Source: Candidatus Wallbacteria bacterium (lineage in GTDB: Bacteria > Muiribacteriota > JAQTZZ01). From it: a stretch of DNA of 61,072 nucleotides. The position numbers and the translations under genes are program-made. The notes beneath the pieces are model-generated. The model was given only the letters and a program-made list of their open reading frames with translations. It made no database searches and was not told the DNA's origin. The stretch covers positions 1 to 61,072 of the forward strand of contig JAQTZZ010000024.1 in the NCBI GenBank assembly GCA_028687545.1, written 5' to 3'. This document shows, piece after piece, positions 11,028 to 34,866 of the stretch (position 1 is the stretch's first letter; each line of letters starts with the position of its first letter).

Positions 11028-11870
11028 TCACTTCTTTTTATTCAGAAGCTGCTTGATGTGAGCGATGTAATTTTCCGCTCCTCCTGATTTGTAGCCTGTT
11101 CTGGCTGTTTCTGTGCCATTCTTGTCTAGAAGAAGCACTGTGGGGAAACCCTGGACATTGTATTTCTTCAGGAGCGCTTCATTGGCAGCGGCCTGATCTT
11201 CAGGCAGCGGATTTTGTTTCGGGAAATCTACCAGTAGAAGGATCAGGTTGTCCTTGGCATAGTCAAGAAATACCTGCTGCGAGAAAACTTCCTTGTCCAG
11301 CTTCTGGCACCAGCCGCACCAGTCTGAACCGGAAAAGTCGGCCAGAATCGGCAGTTCGCGTTCGGCTGAAGCCTTCATTGCCTGATCCATATCAGTAAGC
11401 CAGGCGCCTTTTGGTTCGCCCCTGCTGGACAGAGTGAGGTTTTTCTTCAGGTAATCCACATAAGCTTGAGCTCCGCCTTCCCTGTAACCAGAAGTTAAGA
11501 GCACTACTTCCTGTGAATTAATCACTTTTACTGTGGGCAACCCTGATACACCATACTGGTTGGCAAGTTTCTGGTTCTGGGCTTTGAGTTCAGCAGACTG
11601 AGCAGTGTGTTTCGGAAAATCCACTGACATGCAGATGAATTTCTGATTGGCGAACTGGATAAATTCGGGTTGGGAAGTCACTTCCTTGTCCAGTTTCTGG
11701 CACCAGGAACACCAGTCGGAACCCTGGAAGACCATGAACACAGGCATTCTTTTCTCTGCAGACAGCTGCAGGACTTTCTGATAATCAGTCAGCCAGTCTA
11801 TTTTGGCCGTATCTGCGGCGATTACAGTGGAAATGAAAAATGCCAACATGAACAGCAAGGATCTTTTCAT
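11028..11870 (-). CDS. Secreted protein with two thioredoxin-like domains
   Basis: Exported 280-residue protein with signal peptide MKRSLLFMLAFFISTVIAA and two tandem thioredoxin folds (about 21-145 and 155-278). Each has a WCxWC site: Cys54/Cys57 (GSDWCSWCQKLDKEV) and Cys185/Cys188 (GSDWCGWC). Each domain also has the cis-Pro loop GLPTVKV or GFPTVLL. This is the Thioredoxin_7 style, typical of periplasmic disulfide or reductive handling. A GGAGG box precedes ATG 11870, and the promoter is at 11925-11953. It is a near-duplicate of the upstream gene 12044-12874. Confidence 0.9.
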   Translation of the reverse strand: MKRSLLFMLAFFISTVIAADTAKIDWLTDYQKVLQLSAEKRMPVFMVFQGSDWCSWCQKLDKEVTSQPEFIQFANQKFICMSVDFPKHTAQSAELKAQNQKLANQYGVSGLPTVKVINSQEVVLLTSGYREGGAQAYVDYLKKNLTLSSRGEPKGAWLTDMDQAMKASAERELPILADFSGSDWCGWCQKLDKEVFSQQVFLDYAKDNLILLLVDFPKQNPLPEDQAAANEALLKKYNVQGFPTVLLLDKNGTETARTGYKSGGAENYIAHIKQLLNKKK

Positions 11871-12043: not shown

Positions 12044-12874
12044 TTACTGGCCGAGTAACTGCTTGATATGTTCTATATACTTCTCAGGACCGCCTTCCTT
12101 GTAGCCTGTTCTGGCTTTCTCTGTGCCGGCTTTGTCCATCAGAATCACTGTAGGAAATCCGTCAACTTTGTATTTTTCCAGCAATGCCTGGTTGGCTGCA
12201 GTCTGATCTGCCGGCAGAGGATTGCTCTCCGGAAAATCAACCAGCAGGAGCACCAGATTGTTTTTGGCATAGTCGAGAAATACCTGCTGGGAGAAGACTT
12301 CCTTGTCCAGCTTCTTGCACCAGCAGCACCAGTCTGAACCTGCGAAGTCGGCCAGGATCGGAAGATTCTTCTCAGCAGAAAGCTTCTTGGCCTGCTCCAT
12401 GTCCGTCAGCCAGGCTCCTCTGTTCGAACTGCTCAGATTGAGGCTTGCCTTCAGATAATCCACATATGCTTGAGCTCCACCTTCCCTGTAACCGGATGTC
12501 AGAAGCACTTTTTCCTTGGAATCGATCACTTTAACAGTGGGCAGCCCTGATACACCGTATTGTTTGGAGAGTTTTTGATTCTGGGCTTTGAGTTCTGGGG
12601 ATTGAGCAGTGTGTTTCGGGAAATCCACTGACATGCAGATGAATTTTACACTGGCAAACTGGATAAATTCGGGCTGGGAAGTTACTTCCTTGTCCAGCTT
12701 CTGGCACCAGGAACACCAGTCTGATCCCTGGAAAACCAGGAAAGCAGGCAGGTTTTTCTCTGCCGACAATTGCAGGACTTTCTGATAGTCAGTGAGCCAG
12801 TCGATTTTGGCGGTATCGGCGAACACCGCTGAGATTAGAAACATCATCATCAGGATCAAGACTGTTTTTTTCAT
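12044..12874 (-). CDS. Secreted protein with two thioredoxin-like domains (paralogue)
   Basis: 276 residues, with the same architecture as the protein at 11028: signal peptide (MKKTVLILMMMFLISAVFA), then two thioredoxin folds with sites GSDWCSWC (Cys54/57) and GSDWCCWC. The second site has an extra Cys between the tryptophan and the CxxC, unlike the paralogue's WCGWC. Long stretches are identical between the copies. An AGGAGG box and its own promoter (12908-12936) precede it, so the two copies are separate transcription units despite being adjacent. Confidence 0.9.
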   Translation of the reverse strand: MKKTVLILMMMFLISAVFADTAKIDWLTDYQKVLQLSAEKNLPAFLVFQGSDWCSWCQKLDKEVTSQPEFIQFASVKFICMSVDFPKHTAQSPELKAQNQKLSKQYGVSGLPTVKVIDSKEKVLLTSGYREGGAQAYVDYLKASLNLSSSNRGAWLTDMEQAKKLSAEKNLPILADFAGSDWCCWCKKLDKEVFSQQVFLDYAKNNLVLLLVDFPESNPLPADQTAANQALLEKYKVDGFPTVILMDKAGTEKARTGYKEGGPEKYIEHIKQLLGQ

Positions 12875-12936: not shown

Positions 12937-12979
12937 GGCGAAAATGACGAAGTATATGGCATGCGATCCCAGATCATGC

Positions 12980-12985
12980 TATAAT
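12980..12985 (+). promoter_or_regulatory. Leaderless -10 element for the M23 gene
   Basis: TATAAT ends 6 nt before GTG 12992, in frame with the peptidase. The -35 is weak (TGGCAT at 17-bp spacing). Confidence 0.45.
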
Positions 12986-12991
12986 CATGCC

Positions 12992-14842
12992 GTGCGGCTG
13001 CATCTGATGATTTATTTTATCTTTTGTGCTGTGTTGCGCATCTTTGCGGCTAATTCCGATTTTCAGATCCTGCCGGATTCGAAGGGCTTTGCCGCCACCT
13101 TCGGAGAATTCAGGGGTTCGCGGCTGCACGCAGGCATGGATTTCCGCTGTGAAGGTGAAGGAATCCCGGTGCGGGCAATGGATGACGGTTTACTGGTTCG
13201 CATGAAAGCTGAAAGATATGGATACGGCAAATCCCTGTATCTGAAGAATGATTCAGGCGAAATTTCACTGTTCGCACATCTTTCCATGTTCGAAAACAGG
13301 GTTTTGAAGCTGGAAGACAAGCTGCTGAATCTGAGAAAGAAAGAAGGCAGGCGTTACCCGGTCGATTGCCTGTTTGAATCAGGGACTGAACCTCAGGTCA
13401 GAAAAGGCCAGATCCTTGGATACACCGGACAGACAGGCTCCGGAACAGTTCACCTGCACTACGAAATCCGGAGGGATTGGGAAACTCCGATCAACTACAT
13501 AGAACGGGTTCACGTAAAAGATACCCGTAAGCCTGTGATCGAAAGCCTTGAGATCGTGCCGGCAGCCCCTGGTTCGCTTGTTAATTCACTGCCTCTCCCC
13601 CTGGAAATCACTCTCCAGAACCTCAACGGAATATTCAGGAATCGGGAGAAAGTCAGCTTGAGCCCTGGTACATATTGCTTCCGGGTTAAGACTTATGATC
13701 AGATGAATCAGGCGGCAAACCATCTCGGAGTGTATCTCATAGATGCTGAACTGGACAGCGTTGAAATTTATTGCGCGAACTTCGATTATTTCAAATATTC
13801 GGAGAAAGAATATGGTCTGTTGTATGATCTTGCCAAAGCAGATTATGACAATTATTTTTACAATCTCCAGATCCCTGAAAATGTGATTCTGCCCGGCATT
13901 GTGCTCAAATCGGAAAAATCGCACACTATCGGAGACAGAGTTAAAGTCCTGAAAGTCACTGTGGCGGATTTCTGCGGCAACAGTTCCAGAGCTGAAATCA
14001 GTTTCTCCAGAAAACCAGTCCAGTCCGCCGAGGCAGATTTGAAACTGACTGTACTCGATGATTTTGTACTGCTGCCGCTCGGATACAGCCACAGTGAATT
14101 TCAGAAGACAGCGGGTACTGCAGCCGGATTTCAGATTTTCACTCCTCTGTGCGATCTGGAACTTTATTATCAGCCGGGAAATGATATCCCGGTCCAGCTC
14201 TGTCGGATCATCCGTTTCAATGGACTGGAAAAGCATCTTGTTTACCAGGACTTGAGCCTTGATCTGCCGGAAGATGCAATCTATCAGGATCATTATGAAG
14301 GAATTTCCGTTGTAGAAGCTCCGGAATTTCAGCTGAAACAGCAATCAGACTGCTATTTCTTCGAAAATGGTTCCAAATTGTTTAAAAGAACGGCCCGGGT
14401 TTCAATTATCCCCTGGAAAACAGAAAACCTTATTCCAGCTAAAATCTGTGCATTCGGATTCGATCGCGGGCATTGGAGCTATCTGGACAGTTCCTGGAAC
14501 GGATCAGCCGTGGAATTCGATTCTGACTGTCTTAAAACCTGCGCCCTCTTCTATGACGACATCCCACCCCGTATCAGCCAGGATGGCGCGCAGTTCAGCA
14601 TCACCGACACAGGCTGTGGAATTGATCCTGATTCCGTCAAAGTCTGGTTTGGAAGTGAAGAAGTCCCGGTTGATTTTGATCCTGAAACGAGGATTGTTTT
14701 CTTTCCTGCTGAAATCAGGTCATATTTTCCGAAATCCGGAGCAGTAAACCTGACCCTGGAAGCTTCGGACCGGGTAGGCAACAAAATGCGCAAGATCTCG
14801 GAGGTTTCGTCTTCAGGGCTGAAGATCGAGGGTGGCTCATGA
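12992..14842 (+). CDS. M23 (LytM-type) peptidase with long C-terminal extension
   Basis: Secreted zinc endopeptidase-type protein, probably cutting peptidoglycan cross-links or remodelling the wall. I choose GTG 12992: TATAAT ends 6 nt before it and it begins the hydrophobic signal RLHLMIYFIFCAVLRIFAA. ATG 12944 also stays in frame. Counting from GTG, the zinc and catalytic residues are His46/Asp50 (HAGMD), His96 (FAHLS) and His154-x-His156 (VHLHYE), with the family glycines GYTGQTGSG. About 430 more residues form beta-rich, Ig-like segments of unknown role. It shares an ATGA overlap with the radical SAM fusion gene. Confidence 0.9.
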   Translation: MRLHLMIYFIFCAVLRIFAANSDFQILPDSKGFAATFGEFRGSRLHAGMDFRCEGEGIPVRAMDDGLLVRMKAERYGYGKSLYLKNDSGEISLFAHLSMFENRVLKLEDKLLNLRKKEGRRYPVDCLFESGTEPQVRKGQILGYTGQTGSGTVHLHYEIRRDWETPINYIERVHVKDTRKPVIESLEIVPAAPGSLVNSLPLPLEITLQNLNGIFRNREKVSLSPGTYCFRVKTYDQMNQAANHLGVYLIDAELDSVEIYCANFDYFKYSEKEYGLLYDLAKADYDNYFYNLQIPENVILPGIVLKSEKSHTIGDRVKVLKVTVADFCGNSSRAEISFSRKPVQSAEADLKLTVLDDFVLLPLGYSHSEFQKTAGTAAGFQIFTPLCDLELYYQPGNDIPVQLCRIIRFNGLEKHLVYQDLSLDLPEDAIYQDHYEGISVVEAPEFQLKQQSDCYFFENGSKLFKRTARVSIIPWKTENLIPAKICAFGFDRGHWSYLDSSWNGSAVEFDSDCLKTCALFYDDIPPRISQDGAQFSITDTGCGIDPDSVKVWFGSEEVPVDFDPETRIVFFPAEIRSYFPKSGAVNLTLEASDRVGNKMRKISEVSSSGLKIEGGS

Positions 14843-17178
14843 ACATAGTATCTTTTCAGACACACCTTCCTGCTGCCGCTCTGCTCTCAGGCGGAAAGCT
14901 CAGTGCCATAGTCGAGCAGCGGCTTGAGCACTTCGGGAATCTTGGCATCCCGGCCGCTTCGATTTTCCACCTGCTGGACCGTTCAGGAATTTCCCAGGAT
15001 CAGGTGGATGGATTCGTACACGCCGGATTCGAACACGAACTGGCCGGAAAATACCTGCAACAGGTGATTTTCCGTTCCGGAGTTCCTCAGAACTACAAAC
15101 CGCTTTCACAGGTGAACCCGGACTATGCCAGCTTCCTGTATCTCTCATCGATTTATGGCAATGGAATCTGCTTCTATTTTTCCACCCGTGCTCTCAGCGT
15201 TTTCGAATCAACCGGAGGCAGCCTGAGGCCTCTGGACCTGCAGCTTCAAACAGTCAGTGAAATTTCAGATGCCCTTTCGCTGCTTTACAATGAAGCCGGG
15301 GCATCCCCTGAAGAAATGCTCGAGATGTTTCCATATGGCGGAACGAGGTTTTATCATGAGTTGCGAGATCACTTCTATTTCAACCCGAACGGCAGGGTCA
15401 ATCTTCAGAACTCTCCTGCAGATTTTTTCAAAACACGCATTTCTCCGGAAAACAGGCCTGACCTGCTTGTGGCTTTGAAAAAGGTCACTGAGGACATTTT
15501 TTTACATTACGTCAACTATGTTGCTTTTGTTACCGGATGCCGTGAAATGATGATCAGTGGAGATTTCAATTCCCTGCTGTCCTCTCACAAACTCCGTCGT
15601 TCCCTGCCTGTGAAACTGATTCTGGACGAACTCCCCGACACCTCCCCCTGCCTGGGAGGTACTCTGCACTTTCTGAAGATTTCCAGCAGACCGGCAGTGC
15701 ACTCTGAGCTGGAAGACATCACGTCACTTGCAGAATCAGTTTTCACCCGGATCAGGGAGCAGAAAATTGATTATCTTTCGACTCTGTTTGCACACCCTCA
15801 GGATCCGATTCTGATCGCTTTTCAAGAAGCCTTCCAAAAATGCTCCCACCCTGAAATCACCTTCAAGATAGAAGATCTCACGATCAGCCCAAGTGGAGAA
15901 ATTTCCTGGCTCACTTTTCTCTTCTTCATTTTCGGAAAAGACAGCACTGGCTATCCTTACATAGTCAACCACAAAGGAGTCATCTATCTGAAAAAGGAGC
16001 ATGACTGGAAGATCAATTCCATCGAATTCACAGTTTTCAGGTCTGATCCGATCCTGACGATAGAATTCACCAATCACTGCAATTTCCGTTGTCTGATGTG
16101 CGACCAGTCTACCCGTACCAAAATGGCTGAAAGACCGATGGGATACCTCGAATCCGGTCTCTTCACCCGCATAGTCCGGGACCTGGAGGAATTTCCCGTC
16201 TCCACTGTCACTCCTTTCTGGCTGGGAGAATCCACCCTTCACGATAAATTTTCAGCCTTCCTGGACGAGGCTTTCGCGGGGAACAGAAGCAACCGGCTTT
16301 TCTCAAACCTGACGCTGAACACCAACGGGAGCCTGCTGGACCGGGAAAAGAGCGAAACGATACTTAGAGCAGCACAGCGTATAGATCAGAACCCTTCGAC
16401 GATGCTCAGGCTGCACTTTTCCATTGACGCCGCCGGACCTCAGGTTTATGAACTGATTCATAAAAATCAATGCTATGAACGCACTGTGGAAAACATCCGC
16501 TATTTTCTGGATAGAAGACGGGAGCTGGGGCTTCAGTATCCTAAAGTGACCCTGGCTTTCATCGTGATGAGCGAGAACCGCAGAGAAGCAGCGGGATTTC
16601 TCGATTTCTGGAGGAGAATACTGACAGAGCTTGGATCTGATTTCATGATTGCCTATGACTGGCCCTCGTATAACAAGGACGCCATTTATTTCCGCAGGCT
16701 GGATTGTGACAATCAGCTTGCGGCTGAAAATCTCCATAAGGAAGTATTGATCGGGCTCGGTCTGATTCCGAAAACCGAGCAGAACAATTCCAGGCGGATC
16801 ATAGTCACTGATTCCATTCTCAAAGAAAAACCTGTCACAGAGAGAAATTTCGTCAGAAGACCTTGCCCCGGGCTGTGGTTCACCCCGATTGTCAACTGGA
16901 CCGGAGAAGTGACAGTCTGCTGCTTTGATGTCGGCATGGAGCTGAAAACCGGCGATCTTAGTCTGAATACTCTTTCCGAGATCTGGGACTCGCCCAAGCT
17001 GAATTTCTGGAGGCTCTGTCACATCAGAGGTGAATTTAACAAGATCCCGCGATGCGCCCAATGTGCTAACCTCAATGCTCCCACAATGAAAAACGCTGAT
17101 TTCGTGCGCTACCTGTTAAAAAAAGGGCTCTACAGGGAAATTCAGCCTTTCCTGGAGCGGATGGGGGCAGGAGTCTGA
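14839..17178 (+). CDS. Fusion: degenerate NodU/TobZ-type carbamoyltransferase domain + radical SAM/SPASM
   Basis: 779 residues. Residues 1-285 follow the N-terminal Kae1-like domain of NodU/CmcH/TobZ carbamoyltransferases: THLPAAALLSGGKLSAIVEQ matches the usual HDSAAALxxxGxIxAAxEE, and LSLLYNEAG...MFPYGG matches LGxLY...GLxPYG. The metal-binding HHxxHA motif reads QVNPDYAS (91-98), so the carbamoyl site looks dead. Residues 290-400 are unassigned. The radical SAM core has HCNFRCLMC (Cys414, 418, 421) and FWLGES. A SPASM-type module follows (RPCPGLW, VTVCC, CAQC). ATG 14839 overlaps the M23 stop. The core and tail resemble the protein at 33097. Confidence 0.85.
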   Translation: MNIVSFQTHLPAAALLSGGKLSAIVEQRLEHFGNLGIPAASIFHLLDRSGISQDQVDGFVHAGFEHELAGKYLQQVIFRSGVPQNYKPLSQVNPDYASFLYLSSIYGNGICFYFSTRALSVFESTGGSLRPLDLQLQTVSEISDALSLLYNEAGASPEEMLEMFPYGGTRFYHELRDHFYFNPNGRVNLQNSPADFFKTRISPENRPDLLVALKKVTEDIFLHYVNYVAFVTGCREMMISGDFNSLLSSHKLRRSLPVKLILDELPDTSPCLGGTLHFLKISSRPAVHSELEDITSLAESVFTRIREQKIDYLSTLFAHPQDPILIAFQEAFQKCSHPEITFKIEDLTISPSGEISWLTFLFFIFGKDSTGYPYIVNHKGVIYLKKEHDWKINSIEFTVFRSDPILTIEFTNHCNFRCLMCDQSTRTKMAERPMGYLESGLFTRIVRDLEEFPVSTVTPFWLGESTLHDKFSAFLDEAFAGNRSNRLFSNLTLNTNGSLLDREKSETILRAAQRIDQNPSTMLRLHFSIDAAGPQVYELIHKNQCYERTVENIRYFLDRRRELGLQYPKVTLAFIVMSENRREAAGFLDFWRRILTELGSDFMIAYDWPSYNKDAIYFRRLDCDNQLAAENLHKEVLIGLGLIPKTEQNNSRRIIVTDSILKEKPVTERNFVRRPCPGLWFTPIVNWTGEVTVCCFDVGMELKTGDLSLNTLSEIWDSPKLNFWRLCHIRGEFNKIPRCAQCANLNAPTMKNADFVRYLLKKGLYREIQPFLERMGAGV

Positions 17179-18638
17179 AACTACTGATTTTCATTGCTTT
17201 TCTCGCGATCAGCCTGGCCGGAATCGCCACCAGGGACCCTACTTCGGATGAGACAGCCACTTATTTTACGAATTATAAGTATATGCAGGAGAATTTTGTG
17301 CATGGCATGCATCCCCCTGTGTATTATTTTCTGATCTCTGTCTACAGGCAACTCGGCGGCGGGAGCATGATAGCGCTGCGCCTTTCTTCGATCTTCTTCG
17401 GATTCCTGACGCTTGTAATCTTCGATCAAATCCTGCGGCGCACATCACTGGACCGGAAATGGCTGGCCCTGCTGGCTCTGAATCCGGGATTTCTCTTTTT
17501 CAGCCGCGAAGCCACCTACTATTCATTCCACATTTTGATAGCAGTCTTGCTTTTATATACATATCTGCATGCGCTTTCGAGCAGAAAAACTGCAGCCTTT
17601 ACTGTAGTCTGCTTACTGGCTATTTATTCTTATTATTATCATTTATTTTTAATCGCAGCATTATTCATCGATGCCATGATCGTACGCCGGGTGAATTTCA
17701 AACGTCCGCTGATTCTGATCCTGCTCTTCTCTATTCCCCTCTTTTCAGTAATCCTTTCGAACCCATTTCTGCACGGGATTGCATCGGGCAAAAGCATCGG
17801 TCTTACTGCCACCAAGCCGGCCATCAATATCTTTGATCCAGAGTTGTCCTTTCAATATCTGCTTTACACTCCAGCCTATCTTTTCCTGATGGGAGAGCGC
17901 TATCTGTGGTTGAACTGGACACTGGCGCTTCCGTTCACAGTGCTGATTTACTTTCTGATGTTCAGAAAAGGTTCCGGCAGAAATCTGCTTCCCCTCTATC
18001 TGATTCCGTTCATCCTGCTGGCCGTTTTTTCTGAAATCACCAAAGCAAGAATTCAGCGCATCTCATTCTTTCCATATCATCTGCTGCCATACTTGCCTGT
18101 AATGCTGCTGACTCTGGCCCTGAATCTTAAGAACTCAAGGCTCGCTGCTCCGTTCCTGCTGTCAGCGCTTTTCATGTGCGGACTGCAGGATCTGGACCAG
18201 TTCTTCAACCCCTGGAAAATCTATCAGAATAAAGATGAGCTCAGACAGCTTGCAGGCATCGCTGCTTCCCGCTTTAATCAGTCTAAAGATCTCATTTTTG
18301 CGAACTACTCCTATGAATGGAATTTGATTACCTTTGCAGACCAGATCCGGATTGTCGCGCCTGATCTGCCTGTTGCATCCCTCGAAAGATATTCCGAGTC
18401 CGGGGATTCTTTGTTTGAGAGTAAAAATAGAATCCTTGAATTCGGTCTGACCTGGCTGGACAAATCTTCAATCCGTGTAAATACGGATGATTCAGGCGAG
18501 ACCCTGAAGGACCTTCGTCTTACCGGACAGGCAGAGGAATTTTTAGCCAGGAATTACAATCTGAGTGAAAAAATTGTCCTGTACGGCGAAGAGGGCAGTA
18601 ATTACTGCCTCAAAATCTGGGAAAGATTTGCTTTTTGA
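17175..18638 (+). CDS. GT-C membrane glycosyltransferase (ArnT/PMT-like), probable non-AUG start
   Basis: Polytopic membrane protein of about 487 residues, of the kind that moves a sugar from a polyprenyl carrier. The first ATG (17283) would cut off the first membrane helix (KLLIFIAFLAISLAGIA) and the conserved acidic DPTSDETATYF motif that sits in the first periplasmic loop of this fold. The frame is open upstream, with no ATG, GTG or TTG. CTG 17175 overlaps the preceding stop (CTGA); CTG 17184 is an alternative. The next conserved motif is HPPVYYF. It is the third gene after the M23 and radical SAM genes. The donor and acceptor are unknown. Confidence 0.8.
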   Translation: MKLLIFIAFLAISLAGIATRDPTSDETATYFTNYKYMQENFVHGMHPPVYYFLISVYRQLGGGSMIALRLSSIFFGFLTLVIFDQILRRTSLDRKWLALLALNPGFLFFSREATYYSFHILIAVLLLYTYLHALSSRKTAAFTVVCLLAIYSYYYHLFLIAALFIDAMIVRRVNFKRPLILILLFSIPLFSVILSNPFLHGIASGKSIGLTATKPAINIFDPELSFQYLLYTPAYLFLMGERYLWLNWTLALPFTVLIYFLMFRKGSGRNLLPLYLIPFILLAVFSEITKARIQRISFFPYHLLPYLPVMLLTLALNLKNSRLAAPFLLSALFMCGLQDLDQFFNPWKIYQNKDELRQLAGIAASRFNQSKDLIFANYSYEWNLITFADQIRIVAPDLPVASLERYSESGDSLFESKNRILEFGLTWLDKSSIRVNTDDSGETLKDLRLTGQAEEFLARNYNLSEKIVLYGEEGSNYCLKIWERFAF

Positions 18639-22029: not shown

Positions 22030-23664
22030 TTATTTCAACGAATTCACCATCAATAGCGCAGCAAACAGCATCCAAATCTTTTCCGCCGATTCCTCGGGTT
22101 TTACAGTATCCGTGTAAAACCGTTCAATCATGTCATGTGGAATTTTCAGGGTCACAGCATGATCGTGCAGATATTCCCGGATAAAAGAAAGTTCCCTGCT
22201 TCTGATCCAGGCATTGAGCGGGATCTGGAAGCCCTGCTTTCTCCTGCTGCGGATGATGGCAGGGATCTCCGGAAAAGCTCTGGACAGGATGAATTTCCTC
22301 TGGCGTTCGCTCACTGCCAGTTCGAACGGCAGGGACAGGGCAAACTCCAGGATCGATAGATCGGAAAAAGGCAGCTGGATTTTATTCCCTGAAAGAGTTC
22401 CAATCGAATGAAGTTTCAAGTAATTATTTCCAGGCAGCGAATTTTTATACTGAAAGAGGATCAGTGATCTGAAAAATTCTTCAGGGTTGTCAGGCAGAGT
22501 TTCAGGATCAGGCGAGAGATACTCCACCCCCATCAGCTCAATGATCTCCTGATCAGAGAGGCGTCTGACAAGATAATCGGTATGATGACGGAGTACAGGC
22601 AGGAATTCCATCTTCAGATGCCGGACTATCCCAGGTCTGTCTGGGTTATCAGGAATCCCGGCAGAAAAGAGCGCGGAAACTTGATTAACCCGGCGTTTGG
22701 CGATCACAGCAGAGGACATGAAAGGATAACCGAAAAACCACTCGTCAGCGGGAAGTCCGAAAAAAAGACTGCTGTTCAGGCAGAACGCTGAGATGGCGGA
22801 AAGAAATGCGGCATGGTCCTGGCCGAATGCACATCCCTGGACACCGCTGACAATCAATTTCTGAAGTTCTTCCGCATAGTTCTTAAGTGTAACAAGAAAT
22901 TCCTGATGTTCAATCCTGCCGCTGAGCATCTCATATCTGTAAGTGCCTTCGTCAAATCCAGGCTCGGAAAAGCGCAGGGAAAATGTCCTGGTGCTGATCC
23001 CTGCGAGGTCTGCAGCGGCAAGCAAGGCGCTGGAATCCAGGCCTCCTGAATACATGAGATCCAGTGATCCGGTATGGAGCCTTTTTTTCAGTGCGTGAAC
23101 AGCAAGATCTCGTAATGATTCCGCGGCTTCGTTGATACTGCGGACAGGTGCTGCAGGGGCTGGTTTATAATAACAAAACAGCCTGCAGCCGGACTGGGAA
23201 ACTTCCAGGTAATGGCCTGGCGGAATCAACCGCACTCCCTTCAGCATCGTCTGCCCTTCCTTGAAATATTCGAATCTCAAATAGGAAGAGAGTCCTTCGT
23301 AGTCGATCTGAATCGGCAGATGACTTCTGAAATATGAGTAATCATGACCGAAGATCAGTTTATATCCGTCGAAATGATAGAGAAGCGGAGTCAGGGCTGT
23401 GAGGTCCTGGAAAAGAAAGATCCTGTCGCAGCCCCTGTCAAACAGGACAAGATTGAAATCCCCGTCAAAGCCGGCAATGAATTTTTCCTTGTGTTTCTGA
23501 TACAGCCTGAAAACCAGCTCTTCGACTGAAACATCCCTGTCAAACTGCTTTGAAATCTCGATTTTATTATATAATTCCCCTGAAAAAATAATCGATACTT
23601 CACCATAATCCTTTCGTCCGGTCAGCTTGTAGGATCTGTCGGCAAAATTCAAAAATCCGTTCAT
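22030..23664 (-). CDS. Asparagine-synthetase-like protein lacking the glutaminase cysteine
   Basis: 544 residues: an N-terminal Ntn-type amidotransferase-like domain (1-160) and a C-terminal ATP-pyrophosphatase domain with PP-loop SGGLDS (206-211). Real AsnB needs Cys2 for glutamine hydrolysis; this protein starts MNGF, so it would have to use ammonia, another donor, or be a beta-lactam-synthetase or lasso-cyclase-like relative. Stretches such as SRRKQGFQIPLNAW fit the family C-terminus. The start overlaps the stop of a small TPR protein (ATGA), so the two are likely co-translated. Its substrate cannot be told from sequence. Confidence 0.85.
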   Translation of the reverse strand: MNGFLNFADRSYKLTGRKDYGEVSIIFSGELYNKIEISKQFDRDVSVEELVFRLYQKHKEKFIAGFDGDFNLVLFDRGCDRIFLFQDLTALTPLLYHFDGYKLIFGHDYSYFRSHLPIQIDYEGLSSYLRFEYFKEGQTMLKGVRLIPPGHYLEVSQSGCRLFCYYKPAPAAPVRSINEAAESLRDLAVHALKKRLHTGSLDLMYSGGLDSSALLAAADLAGISTRTFSLRFSEPGFDEGTYRYEMLSGRIEHQEFLVTLKNYAEELQKLIVSGVQGCAFGQDHAAFLSAISAFCLNSSLFFGLPADEWFFGYPFMSSAVIAKRRVNQVSALFSAGIPDNPDRPGIVRHLKMEFLPVLRHHTDYLVRRLSDQEIIELMGVEYLSPDPETLPDNPEEFFRSLILFQYKNSLPGNNYLKLHSIGTLSGNKIQLPFSDLSILEFALSLPFELAVSERQRKFILSRAFPEIPAIIRSRRKQGFQIPLNAWIRSRELSFIREYLHDHAVTLKIPHDMIERFYTDTVKPEESAEKIWMLFAALLMVNSLK

Positions 23665-30592: not shown

Positions 30593-31856
30593 ATTCGATA
30601 AATTCCGGGCTGCCGAAGAACATTCCAGGACAGAAGATAACCGCACTGACACCATCCAGCAGCGAGTCGATCAGGCAAAATCCCTGCTGCAGGGCGGTAT
30701 CCAGAGCCAAGCCCTCAGCATGTTCCAGGAAATCCTCAAGCAGGACCCTGACAACTTCGACGCGCTGCTCTATCTCGGCAACATCTATTTCAACCAGGCC
30801 GAGATGTCCCATGCCATTCCGATGTACGAGCGGTTGATCAAGGCCCACCCCGGGATAAGCTTTTATCCTTACATCAACATCCTGAGGGCTCTGCTTAAAG
30901 TCAGACAATATGACAAACTTAATGATTACGGCGCTAAATGTCTGGAGACTTTTCCCCATCAGGCCGAACCCTTCAAACTGATCGGTATTTCTCAATACTT
31001 TCAGGGGAATTTTTCTGGAGCAGTGGATCAGCTGAAGCGATACCTTGAGCGGGACTCCTTTGACCCGGAATGTATTTACTACCTCGGGCTGACTTACAAA
31101 AGCACGGAAAACTATGATGCAGCAATTTATTATTTTCAGCGCCTGGCCAAGATCATTCCTGAAGACATTGAAACCGTGAAAGTACTTGGATTCCTTCATC
31201 TGAAAAAGCGCGATTACAAGAGCGCAGTTTCTCATTTCGAGGAACTTTATTCCAAATTCAATGATTTCAGTGTCGGCAAGGAACTGGCTTTTATCTATCT
31301 ATATCTGAAAGAATTCGCCAAAGCCGAAATTTTACTCTCTTCCCTTCTGCTGAGTGCTCCCTATCAGACCGACCTGCTCCTCGCTCTGGGAGAACTGTTC
31401 CTGGATTCAGATCAAAGTCAGAAAGCACAGCAGCACTTGAAAAACGCCTATCTGGCGAATTCACAGGATCCGCAGGTGACTTATCGCCTTGCCACAGGAT
31501 TCCAGAAGCTCGCAAACATTCCACAAGCCATTTTTTATTTGCAAAAAACGATTTCGCTTAAACCGGATTTTATCGATCCCTACCTGGACCTTTATCATCT
31601 GTTTGAGCAGACCGGAGAATCCGACGACAAGTTCGCCAGGATCAAACTTCAACTTCTCAATCAAAAATGGGAAATTCCAGAATATTACTATCTGATGGCG
31701 AGGCTGCTGGAGCGGGAAGGAGAAATCTCGAAATCCACCGATTTCATAAAAAACTGCCACTATAACCATGATTTCAGATACATGGCGGAAGCAGAACTCC
31801 TCAAATCAAGACTTTCTTTTTCCGCTTCAGACAATAGACAGGAGGAAAAAAAGTGA
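30576..31856 (+). CDS. Cytoplasmic TPR protein
   Basis: 426 residues with about ten TPR units from residue 28 on (for example FDALLYLGNIYFNQAEMSHA and PECIYYLGLTYKSTENYDAA). It has no signal peptide. The start lies 17 bases inside the end of the regulator gene, and the stop overlaps the next start (GTGA), so it is central to the four-gene operon. It probably assembles or regulates the proteins encoded around it. Confidence 0.85.
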   Translation: MAKVYKFDKFRAAEEHSRTEDNRTDTIQQRVDQAKSLLQGGIQSQALSMFQEILKQDPDNFDALLYLGNIYFNQAEMSHAIPMYERLIKAHPGISFYPYINILRALLKVRQYDKLNDYGAKCLETFPHQAEPFKLIGISQYFQGNFSGAVDQLKRYLERDSFDPECIYYLGLTYKSTENYDAAIYYFQRLAKIIPEDIETVKVLGFLHLKKRDYKSAVSHFEELYSKFNDFSVGKELAFIYLYLKEFAKAEILLSSLLLSAPYQTDLLLALGELFLDSDQSQKAQQHLKNAYLANSQDPQVTYRLATGFQKLANIPQAIFYLQKTISLKPDFIDPYLDLYHLFEQTGESDDKFARIKLQLLNQKWEIPEYYYLMARLLEREGEISKSTDFIKNCHYNHDFRYMAEAELLKSRLSFSASDNRQEEKK

Positions 31857-33100
31857 CTTCAAAGCTAATCATTTTACTGCTGGTCCTTTTATTAGGATTT
31901 AACCTGTTTTTTTTGAACCTGCTCATCAGAAAGGGTGAAATCAACATTATTCCGCTCCATCCTAAAAAGACTGTAACATCCCTGAACATTCCGATCCCCG
32001 CTACCTCCGAAACCCTTTCTCTGCCTGTAAATCCTTATGCAGCAGAAACTGAAGCGCACTTAAAAAGACTTACTGCTTTGACTCATCTGGACAACCTGCC
32101 CCCCGGCTTTCCTCCAGAGAAATTTCCATACACTATCGACTTGCCGGCAGGAAGCAAAATCCCACAGATACCGGATTCCGGAAAAATCGTGCGCTGCACC
32201 CATACTACAGCCCAACCTCAACTTGACGGATTCATGGATCAGGTATACGGGTCCCCTGTGATCCTTGAATCAAAATTTTTCGACAATCTCAGGATGGCGG
32301 CTTTGTATGACCAGGACAATGTCTTCATGTTTTTTTCATTTTCCAACAACATCCCCTGCGAACCCTATGTCAGCTGTTTAAAATGGGACGAGCGTCAGAA
32401 GACTTATTTTCTGCTCTCGTTCACAGGATACAAGTATTACAATCCTTACAAATACCTGTTTCTCGACATCTACTGGGAGATTGGCGATCACGATCTTGAA
32501 ACATGCCTGTCCAAGAGATTACCCATGGGATTCGACCTCTGGAACTGGACCCCTGGAACCTGTATCTCCAGGAACCTTGATGACAATTTCTGCAAAGCAA
32601 CTCCGACCATCGAAAAAAAAGATCTCCTCATGGAGAAGGGGCGTGTGCAGAACTCGTTTCCCATCTACCTCAACGAAACATATCAGCTTTTCGGCTTGAA
32701 TTACCACGACAGCGGCGACAAGTCGTACAAAGCTCTTGACGTGATACCGCTGTATTACGAAGGCGCCACGATCAATGCCTTAATGCCGGCTAAAGCGACG
32801 GAATCTTCGTCAGATATCGAATGCCGCTGGACCTTCAACGGCAAAGTCAGCAATTTTCCCGAAGTCGAAAAAATGAAATGCATAGGTGAATGGACACTGG
32901 AAATCAAGCGCAGACTCGACACAGGACATCCCGACGATATCGCTTTCAATCCTGGGCAACGGACCAGATATCGTTTTTTCCTTCCCTATCTGATTCCTTT
33001 TTACTCTGAGGAATTGAAGAAAGAAAAGATTTATCACGAACTGCTGGAACAGAATCTTGGTCAATTCATTCCCTTCTATACTCTGGAATTCGTCAAATGA
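31853..33100 (+). CDS. Membrane-anchored protein with EB_dh/CBM9-like domain
   Basis: 415 residues. GTG 31853 has a GGAGG box (31841-31845). One N-terminal membrane helix (4-24) is followed by a linker and a beta-sandwich resembling the ethylbenzene-dehydrogenase heme-subunit family: an LDGFMDQVYGSP opening, a DNVFMFFSFSN strand, and GFDLWNWTPGT followed by DDNFC. These match the general DxxWxW pattern, but heme ligands are not certain. The role is unknown. It is tied by overlapping codons to the TPR and radical SAM genes. Confidence 0.65.
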   Translation: MTSKLIILLLVLLLGFNLFFLNLLIRKGEINIIPLHPKKTVTSLNIPIPATSETLSLPVNPYAAETEAHLKRLTALTHLDNLPPGFPPEKFPYTIDLPAGSKIPQIPDSGKIVRCTHTTAQPQLDGFMDQVYGSPVILESKFFDNLRMAALYDQDNVFMFFSFSNNIPCEPYVSCLKWDERQKTYFLLSFTGYKYYNPYKYLFLDIYWEIGDHDLETCLSKRLPMGFDLWNWTPGTCISRNLDDNFCKATPTIEKKDLLMEKGRVQNSFPIYLNETYQLFGLNYHDSGDKSYKALDVIPLYYEGATINALMPAKATESSSDIECRWTFNGKVSNFPEVEKMKCIGEWTLEIKRRLDTGHPDDIAFNPGQRTRYRFFLPYLIPFYSEELKKEKIYHELLEQNLGQFIPFYTLEFVK

Positions 33101-34866
33101 TCCTGAATTTTCGCCTGGTAATCCCTTCAGGGATTACTCCTTCTGGAGTTCTTCCGTTTTTAGAAGCCTTCGTCATTGGTGACTGTGCACCTTTTTCATG
33201 GCACGGCAACCATCTTTGCCTGGAGAAAACAGGTCCCTTTTTCAGTGCATCCATAGAAATGGATCAAATGGAATTCAGCTTCAAGTTTCTGCTTAAGTAC
33301 ATAACAGTGGAAGGACGGGAAATACATCAGATCGAAAACAAACCCAGATACCATGTCTTTAGCGGAGAACAGAAAATTACCGCCGAATTCAGCCGCGATT
33401 TTTTCACGACCGATTATACCGCTCTTTTTGAAAAATGTGCCTGCCTTAACCTTTACAAATCCCCGCTGATCAGCTCTTCAGGAGAATTATCTTTCTGCTG
33501 CCGGGATTTCAATCTGGAAACCGCACTCGGAAGTATGAAGGACAAAAGTTTTTTCGAGCTCTGGGAAGGGCCTGGCATGAATTCACTGCGTCTCTCGCAG
33601 ATCAGAGGTGATTTCAGATCTCCACCCTGCGCTGCATGTAAAAATGAAATCCCGGCGGAGATTGATGTTTTGCAGAAATTTCTGGCAGAAACAGGTTTAC
33701 CGGAAATCCTTCCTGAATACTGCCATCGAACTCTTCGCAAATTTTACATCCCACTTTATCTTCAGCTTGAAGTCACAGACCTCTGCCAGCTCTCCTGCGG
33801 CTTTTGCAGTCAGAAGTACAGGGATTGGGAAACAGTTCATGGTAGACCTGAGAAAGGCCTGATGGAGCTGCCTCTGCTTGAAAAGATCATTTCCGATCTT
33901 TCAACCCTTCCCTTTCCAGTCAGAATGCTTTCTCTTTTCTGGCTCGGAGAACCTCTGCTGCATCCTGAATTCATAAAGATACTGGACATCGTACGCAGCC
34001 GGCAGGAAAAGAAAGCCTTCTATCAGGAAGTAGAGTTTCATACCAATGTCCTGGAATTTACTCCACAATTTCAGGAAAAACTTGCCGAAGTAGTTCCAGA
34101 GCACCTGCGGATTGTTTTTTCTCTTGACGCCTGCACTGAAGATACTCATGCTGCTGTCCGCGGCGGAGACTTTAATCTAATTCAGGATAATATTTCCCAT
34201 TATCTTAAAAATTATCGCCATCTTCCGGTCAGAAACATCTTCCAGTTCATAGTCACCCGGGATAACCTGCACGAGGCCAAATTATTTTTTGAATATTTCA
34301 GGGAAAGGCTCCCTGAGATCCAGGTTACGGCCTGGCACGACTGGGTAAAGAAAGATATCCTGTATTTTCGCTCCTGCGATCCTCTGGATTCACGGATGTC
34401 AGCCCTAAATGCAGGCCTGCATGAGGAAATCTGCGGATGGATCAGGACTCTCCAGGAGCACAGAGTTTTCTTCGTCCCTGAGTATCACCAGCCGGAGTCG
34501 CTCAGACCGTCGCCTGAATTCCGCCCTCCGTGCTCACTACCGTTCCTTAACCCCTCAATCCGCTGGGACGGCGAACTGACAGTCTGCTGCCATGATTCCC
34601 CGCTGCACAACTCACTGGGAAACCTGAAACAGGATTCATTTCAGAAATTGTGGTTTGAAAAAGCAGGTCCGCTCAGGGAGAAAATGCTGCTGGGTGATTG
34701 GAACGGGCTCAGCACCTGCAAGGATTGTCCTTTCCCCGGATCAGCTAATTACCAGCCTTTCAACGAATACTATCTGTTCAGATTTTTGATCAATTCCGGT
34801 CAGGTTGATCTGATTGAAAAATATCTCAAGAGAAAACTGGATTCCAGAACAGTCATGAATTCCTGA
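33097..34866 (+). CDS. Radical SAM protein with SPASM-type modules on both sides of the core
   Basis: 589 residues. The radical SAM core has DLCQLSCGFC (Cys230, 234, 237), FWLGEPLLHPEF and FSLDACTEDTH. A C-terminal SPASM-type module (about 487-560: PPCSLPF, LTVCCHDS, TCKDC) is followed by a helical tail. A matching module precedes the core (114-181: CACLNLY, LSFCCRDF, CAAC), also followed by the tail motif FLAETGLPEI. Two extra Fe-S clusters are therefore possible. The first 110 residues are unassigned. It is similar in core and tail to the fusion at 14839. ATG 33097 overlaps the preceding stop. Confidence 0.87.
   Translation: MILNFRLVIPSGITPSGVLPFLEAFVIGDCAPFSWHGNHLCLEKTGPFFSASIEMDQMEFSFKFLLKYITVEGREIHQIENKPRYHVFSGEQKITAEFSRDFFTTDYTALFEKCACLNLYKSPLISSSGELSFCCRDFNLETALGSMKDKSFFELWEGPGMNSLRLSQIRGDFRSPPCAACKNEIPAEIDVLQKFLAETGLPEILPEYCHRTLRKFYIPLYLQLEVTDLCQLSCGFCSQKYRDWETVHGRPEKGLMELPLLEKIISDLSTLPFPVRMLSLFWLGEPLLHPEFIKILDIVRSRQEKKAFYQEVEFHTNVLEFTPQFQEKLAEVVPEHLRIVFSLDACTEDTHAAVRGGDFNLIQDNISHYLKNYRHLPVRNIFQFIVTRDNLHEAKLFFEYFRERLPEIQVTAWHDWVKKDILYFRSCDPLDSRMSALNAGLHEEICGWIRTLQEHRVFFVPEYHQPESLRPSPEFRPPCSLPFLNPSIRWDGELTVCCHDSPLHNSLGNLKQDSFQKLWFEKAGPLREKMLLGDWNGLSTCKDCPFPGSANYQPFNEYYLFRFLINSGQVDLIEKYLKRKLDSRTVMNS

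Follow-up and report, generated by a model that had tools for sequence, protein, structure and literature searches.

A degenerate carbamoyltransferase-like domain fused to a twitch-type radical SAM enzyme in a Candidatus Wallbacteria genome

The fusion gene and its catalytic half

The 61,072-nucleotide contig JAQTZZ010000024.1 of a Candidatus Wallbacteria bacterium (phylum Muiribacteriota; GenBank assembly GCA_028687545.1), hereafter the window, carries on its forward strand a gene for which an original prediction had proposed the union of a carbamoyltransferase-like half with a radical S-adenosylmethionine (SAM)/SPASM enzyme. This architecture is borne out by a single unbroken frame of 779 codons, profile comparisons, Pfam matches and its recurrence in a second genome, and the domain order of the product is pseudo-Kae1-like, NTF2-like, radical SAM and twitch/SPASM. 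The gene and its parts are as follows (aa, amino acids; HMM, hidden Markov model):

14839-17178, +: complete fusion gene, 779 aa; open frame without stops, with a full-length orthologue at L031:9816-12248
14839-15681, +: degenerate Kae1-like (Carbam_trans_N) domain of the ASKHA fold, residues 1-281; from hhalign, an HMM of the two fusions and fold match
15148-15165, +: SIYGNG, residues 104-109, aligned with the iron-binding HHxxHA motif; 29-sequence alignment
15637-15639, +: D267, at the position of the last iron-binding Asp (D333 of GdmN); from alignments, Ser in the orthologue
15703-16023, +: NTF2-like domain, residues 289-395; from AlphaFold2 models and Foldseek
16045-16638, +: radical SAM core, residues ~403-600; PF04055 above cut-off
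16078-16101, +: C414-x3-C418-x2-C421, predicted ligands of the SAM-binding 4Fe-4S cluster; conserved in the orthologue
16864-17064, +: twitch-type SPASM module, residues 676-742, with C676, C694/695, C739 and C742; from PF13186 and phmmer to BtrN, cysteines conserved in the orthologue

Pfam profiles detect the radical SAM domain (PF04055, residues 408-560, 42.2 bits against a cut-off of 29.5) and the SPASM domain (PF13186, residues 676-742, 41.3 bits against 21.5), and nothing above cut-off N-terminal of these two. The cluster-binding cysteines had been placed exactly, at positions 414, 418 and 421 within CNFRCLMC; they correspond to C421, C425 and C428 of the orthologue, in which C676, C694/695, C739 and C742 are likewise conserved. 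The assignment of the C-terminal module as SPASM-type stands at the level of the profile; however, its cysteines are the four of a twitch domain rather than the seven of a full SPASM, as only C676..G..C694/695 and C739-x2-C742 can be matched to the pattern CX9-15GX4C-CX2CX5CX3C-C. These residues predict a four-cysteine twitch with one auxiliary cluster, and in BtrN four cysteines fully ligate such a single auxiliary cluster (PMC6231123). The protein reaches no cut-off in NCBIfam, all scores being far below, including that of the model for the tungsten cofactor oxidoreductase maturase (TIGR04317; 74.8 bits against an equivalog cut-off of 380). A defence-system reading was also considered and rejected, the only match in its favor being a weak one of viperin to the generic radical SAM core.

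The N-terminal half: a Kae1-like domain and an NTF2-like domain

The Carbam_trans_N profile (PF02543) matches the fusion protein at E=0.064, below the Pfam cut-off. Profile-profile comparison with hhalign of a two-row alignment of the known fusions against 15 carbamoyltransferase domains of the phylum yielded a probability of 98% (E=3e-13) over 269 columns. With the N-terminal domain alone, E was 1e-13 over 268 columns at the same probability and the score was 99, against at most 27 in 200 column shuffles, 15 for the reversed profile and 12 for residues 286-395. In a reciprocal approach, an HMM built from the two fusions only was searched against 382 genomes and had hits in 18 more; the frames read among them were carbamoyltransferases except for one penicillin-binding-protein-like frame and one fragment. 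These carbamoyltransferases are mostly ~580-620 aa long, with the HHxxHA motif mostly intact. Smaller comparisons gave less: the two fusion N-terminal domains matched two solo Kae1-like proteins at a probability of 5.5%, two being too few sequences, and the best carbamoyltransferase hit of an HMM of the two domains among PDB sequences had E=0.04. Taken at the level of sequence profiles, homology of residues 1-281 over their whole length to the Kae1-like domain of NodU/TobZ-type enzymes is well supported. The Kae1-like match devoid of His ligands that had been anticipated for residues 1-290 is thus recovered by hhalign with shuffle controls.

In the carbamoyltransferase GdmN, the iron is bound by H133, H137, D156 and D333, H27 acts as the general base, and carbamoyl-AMP is made by a separate YrdC-like domain (PMC9633730). 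The segment QVNPDYAS (residues 91-98), which had been taken for the equivalent of the iron motif, precedes the true equivalent in the alignment, SIYGNG (residues 104-109), for which the orthologue has YNLKKA. Of the two Asp ligands, the orthologue retains the counterpart of D156 (in LLDDG), which is missing from the window protein, and the window protein may retain that of D333 as D267; at least three of the four iron ligands are hence gone in both known copies, each of which keeps at most one Asp. The GG..N nucleotide motif is degraded to SGDFNS in the window protein and SGKIPS in the orthologue. The His of YHD, in the loop expected to carry the general base (H27 of GdmN), has H9 as its counterpart in the window protein and Thr in the orthologue. 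There is no Pfam match to the YrdC-like domain (PF16861) in the fusion protein. Because the iron ligands, the GG..N motif and the YrdC-like domain are gone, the Kae1-like domain is predicted to be catalytically dead, that is, very unlikely to transfer carbamoyl by the known mechanism.

The second carbamoyltransferase domain had been thought to be replaced by the radical SAM domain. The YrdC-like domain is indeed absent, but its place is also taken by a further domain that had been overlooked. AlphaFold2 models of residues ~289-395 show helices and a curved four-stranded sheet, with a predicted local distance difference test score (pLDDT) of 54-71 from two sequences and 80-90 from 29. Foldseek searches with residues 289-395 recovered NTF2-like proteins, including a putative dehydratase, ketosteroid isomerase and the CaMKII hub, while no Pfam family matches this region by sequence. 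On these models, an NTF2-like domain lies between the Kae1-like and radical SAM parts.

Phyletic distribution of the fusion

A search for other proteins with the same domain pair, as had been suggested, recovered a full-length orthologue in a genome of another family of the phylum (G002; L031:9816-12248, 810 aa). It has the same domain order in one frame and is alignable across the linker. The two fusions are 46-50% identical across the radical SAM/twitch part and 23-25% across the Kae1-like and NTF2-like domains, which suggests that the chemistry module is kept while the putative binding module drifts. A tree built from 39 related radical SAM domains, drawn from four genomes, groups the two fusions in a single clade (support 98/90), pointing to their common origin.

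The fusion is rare: the fused N-terminal domain was found in two of 40 genomes of the phylum, and no further copy was recovered within its own family. Two genome samples that share members, one of 382 around the source genome and one of 385 around genome G051, yielded carbamoyltransferases and no further fusion, so that none was seen in the several hundred genomes sampled beyond the phylum; scoring in these searches was limited to the top candidates from a permissive initial screen and could have missed rare copies. No relative of the fusion turned up in viral contigs, a search of the genome contig collection returned only two generic radical SAM genes, and plasmids yielded nothing closer than distant radical SAM relatives, carried by a plasmid of Brachyspira. 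In the sister genome (G001), contig C457 ends within the M23 peptidase gene that precedes the fusion in the window, and contig C243 opens, at its base 1, with the GT-C gene that follows the fusion. Absence of the fusion there is uninformative because the contig break falls exactly at its expected place, and we dropped the idea that it signified a recent origin.

Gene neighborhood

The genes flanking the fusion are:

12944-14842, +: M23 peptidase gene, 632 aa; PF01551, with a 4-base overlap (ATGA) with the start of the fusion
17175-18638, +: GT-C glycosyltransferase-like gene; open frame of 512 aa, PF13231 just below cut-off

The frame of the GT-C gene, for which an ATG at 17283 was listed, is open further upstream. 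Segments of the kind encoded there, RDPTSDETATYF, are expected near the start of GT-C-type membrane glycosyltransferases. The listed ATG is too late because this upstream stretch is part of the open frame, and the gene probably starts at a CTG or ATT codon in 17175-17187, directly at the stop of the fusion. Given the ATGA overlap with the M23 gene and this gapless start, the three co-directional genes are likely to be translationally coupled. The sister genome retains both flanking genes, one on each side of its assembly break, and there the GT-C gene is followed by the NIF3-like gene and further genes arranged as in the window.

From this organization, a glycan or envelope precursor is our favored guess for the substrate. 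The link to cell-surface modification made in the original prediction survives in part: the M23 and GT-C neighbors are real and co-directional, but the orthologue lies among unrelated genes, leaving it a hint. A ~36-kb Brachyspira hyodysenteriae plasmid has a four-gene block with a glycosyltransferase gene and a radical SAM gene among its members (PMC4267127); the distant Brachyspira plasmid relatives, which may or may not correspond to this radical SAM gene, fit an envelope or glycan substrate loosely.

Two other loci in the window merit record. Upstream, on the reverse strand, 11028-11870 and 12044-12874 encode a tandem pair of closely similar proteins, both with two thioredoxin-like DWCxWC segments, and one homologue is found in the sister genome downstream of the GT-C locus (L127:5251-6003). 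Further downstream, 22030-23664 (reverse strand) encodes an asparagine-synthase-like amidotransferase of 544 aa, whose glutaminase match begins at profile position 21 or 36, such that its usual N-terminal start may be missing.

Radical SAM modules in the genome and phylum

The source genome has 71 radical SAM matches, about twenty of which are close to that of the fusion. Sibling genes include fusions to a GDSL hydrolase with TPR repeats, to B12-binding domains, to CIA30/CBM_11-like domains and to TPR repeats. Modules of both kinds thus abound in the lineage of the fusion and are combined freely there, and the fusion is a further example of how radical SAM/SPASM modules of the phylum are joined to many different accessory domains.

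Several of these loci are of independent interest. One 868-aa frame (L032:4452-7058) combines radical SAM/SPASM, TPR repeats and a GDSL/SGNH hydrolase; a tandem radical SAM/SPASM gene cluster (L035:2150-12208) includes genes fused to a B12-binding radical SAM domain and others fused to CBM-like domains, and related clusters occur in the sister genome and in that of the orthologue. A second radical SAM protein of the window (33097-34866, 589 aa) has a SPASM domain on each side of the core and is directly preceded by a gene (31853-33100) whose product has a weak ethylbenzene-dehydrogenase-like match.

Proposed function and alternative explanations

We think it quite possible, and propose tentatively, that the pseudo-Kae1 and NTF2-like half constitutes a binding or positioning module, with the chemistry left to the radical SAM domain. 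A twitch-type radical SAM enzyme would have captured a Kae1-like domain lacking the iron site and the YrdC-like partner. The resulting pseudo-Kae1 and NTF2-like module would bind, position or deliver a substrate, a carrier-linked substrate or a partner protein. The nucleoside or carbamoyl-like ligand suggested in the original prediction is hypothetical, the GG..N nucleotide motif being degraded as well. At the C414/418/421 cluster, SAM would be cleaved reductively; hydrogen abstraction would follow, and the single auxiliary cluster could pass on an electron, as proposed for BtrN, whose type of enzyme dehydrogenates a sugar-like alcohol. The more specific notion that a carbamoyltransferase Kae1-like domain, stripped of its metal and nucleotide chemistry, is now the substrate- or carrier-recognition domain of a radical SAM enzyme is one that we entertain with greater doubt.

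That two genes were joined by misassembly or a frameshift might be suspected from the fragmented assembly (108 contigs) and the lack of another copy recovered in the same family. Such an artefact is extremely improbable because the orthologue from another family reads through in one frame with the same order and an alignable linker, and the radical SAM parts form one clade; the GC content is also similar along the gene. The low identity of the N-terminal domain to carbamoyltransferases (14-24% in the alignment) and its escape from Pfam detection would be compatible with descent from another ASKHA family or with convergence; we hold this to be very improbable in light of the shuffle controls and of the matches of the blind HMM, which are nearly all carbamoyltransferases rather than members of other ASKHA families. 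It is somewhat less far-fetched, though still improbable, that the Kae1-like domain remains an enzyme with an altered site, for instance one that transfers groups without a metal, or still binds nucleotides. H9 at the general-base position and D267 at one iron-ligand position would favor this, but these are Thr and Ser in the orthologue, both His ligands and GG..N are gone in both copies, and there is no YrdC-like domain to supply carbamoyl-AMP. A stronger contender, though in our judgment unlikely, is that the pseudo-Kae1 and NTF2-like parts form a dimerisation or scaffold unit without a small-molecule ligand, akin to oligomerising NTF2-like hubs: the CaMKII hub oligomerisation domain is among the top fold matches of residues 289-395, GdmN dimerises partly via its Kae1-like domain (PMC9633730), and the N-terminal half diverges fast. 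Set against this, the NTF2-like matches include pocket proteins (ketosteroid isomerase and the putative dehydratase), and keeping a 280-residue two-lobe fold just to dimerise would seem costly.

Several observations weigh against a binding module of carbamoyltransferase descent coupled to envelope chemistry. AlphaFold2 with the two fusions only gave no usable fold for residues 1-288 (pLDDT 22-37). The N-terminal part of a 29-sequence model has fold matches of the Foldseek type to GdmN, TobZ and VtdB, followed by Kae1 and TsaD, but because carbamoyltransferases were included in its alignment it illustrates the Kae1-like fold and is not independent proof of it; the stretch around the iron site (residues 85-138) has low model confidence even with 29 sequences. 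The best PDB sequence match of the protein, BtrN, is weak (phmmer E=0.003), and twitch enzymes do not group by function (PMC6231123). Finally, the neighbors of the orthologue are different, namely hisS and another radical SAM gene, and the envelope link may hence be lineage-specific.

If the pseudo-domain is a recognition module, an obsolete enzyme would have been recycled to select substrates for radical chemistry, offering a new route of substrate recognition for radical SAM enzymes. Both halves come from well-studied families, and we found no report of their union among the open-licence PMC papers searched, none of which combines the terms 'radical SAM', 'SPASM' and 'carbamoyltransferase'.

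Comparison with known systems

The class III O-carbamoyltransferases (TobZ, GdmN, NodU; PF02543) resemble the fusion throughout the Kae1-like domain, starting with its first beta strands and ending at the PAAGDAG region; they keep the iron site, GG..N and the YrdC-like domain, in place of which the fusion has the NTF2-like, radical SAM and twitch modules. A solo Carbam_trans_N protein of the source genome (L061:4531-5562, 343 aa), with a copy in the sister genome (L062:4400-5437), has a Kae1-like domain without a YrdC-like one, as in the fusion, but it keeps HHLSHA and GG and is not fused. Such solo proteins and the full carbamoyltransferases of the same genomes furnish natural comparisons for the fusion. 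The surroundings of the solo gene are conserved in the two genera. In the genome with the orthologue, a 619-aa protein (L064:3703-5562) has Carbam_trans_N followed by ~300 residues without a Pfam match in the place of the YrdC-like domain.

On the radical SAM side, the Spiro-SPASM proteins (TIGR04321) also have an N-terminal extension, with ~230 residues ahead of the core in the model, but the fusion scores 52 bits against their cut-off of 250, and the best stretch is confined to the radical SAM part. The twitch/SPASM enzymes (BtrN, SkfB, MoaA and the NCBIfam families N_Twi_rSAM and W_rSAM_matur) share with it the CxxxCxxC core and the four-cysteine auxiliary site; what sets the fusion apart is its accessory module, a pseudo-carbamoyltransferase and an NTF2-like domain. 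SkfB, a twitch enzyme with an N-terminal peptide-binding domain (PMC6231123), has the same layout and sets a precedent in this group for binding domains placed N-terminally, and the recognition role proposed for the Kae1-like domain would be comparable to that of the RRE domain of peptide-modifying enzymes.

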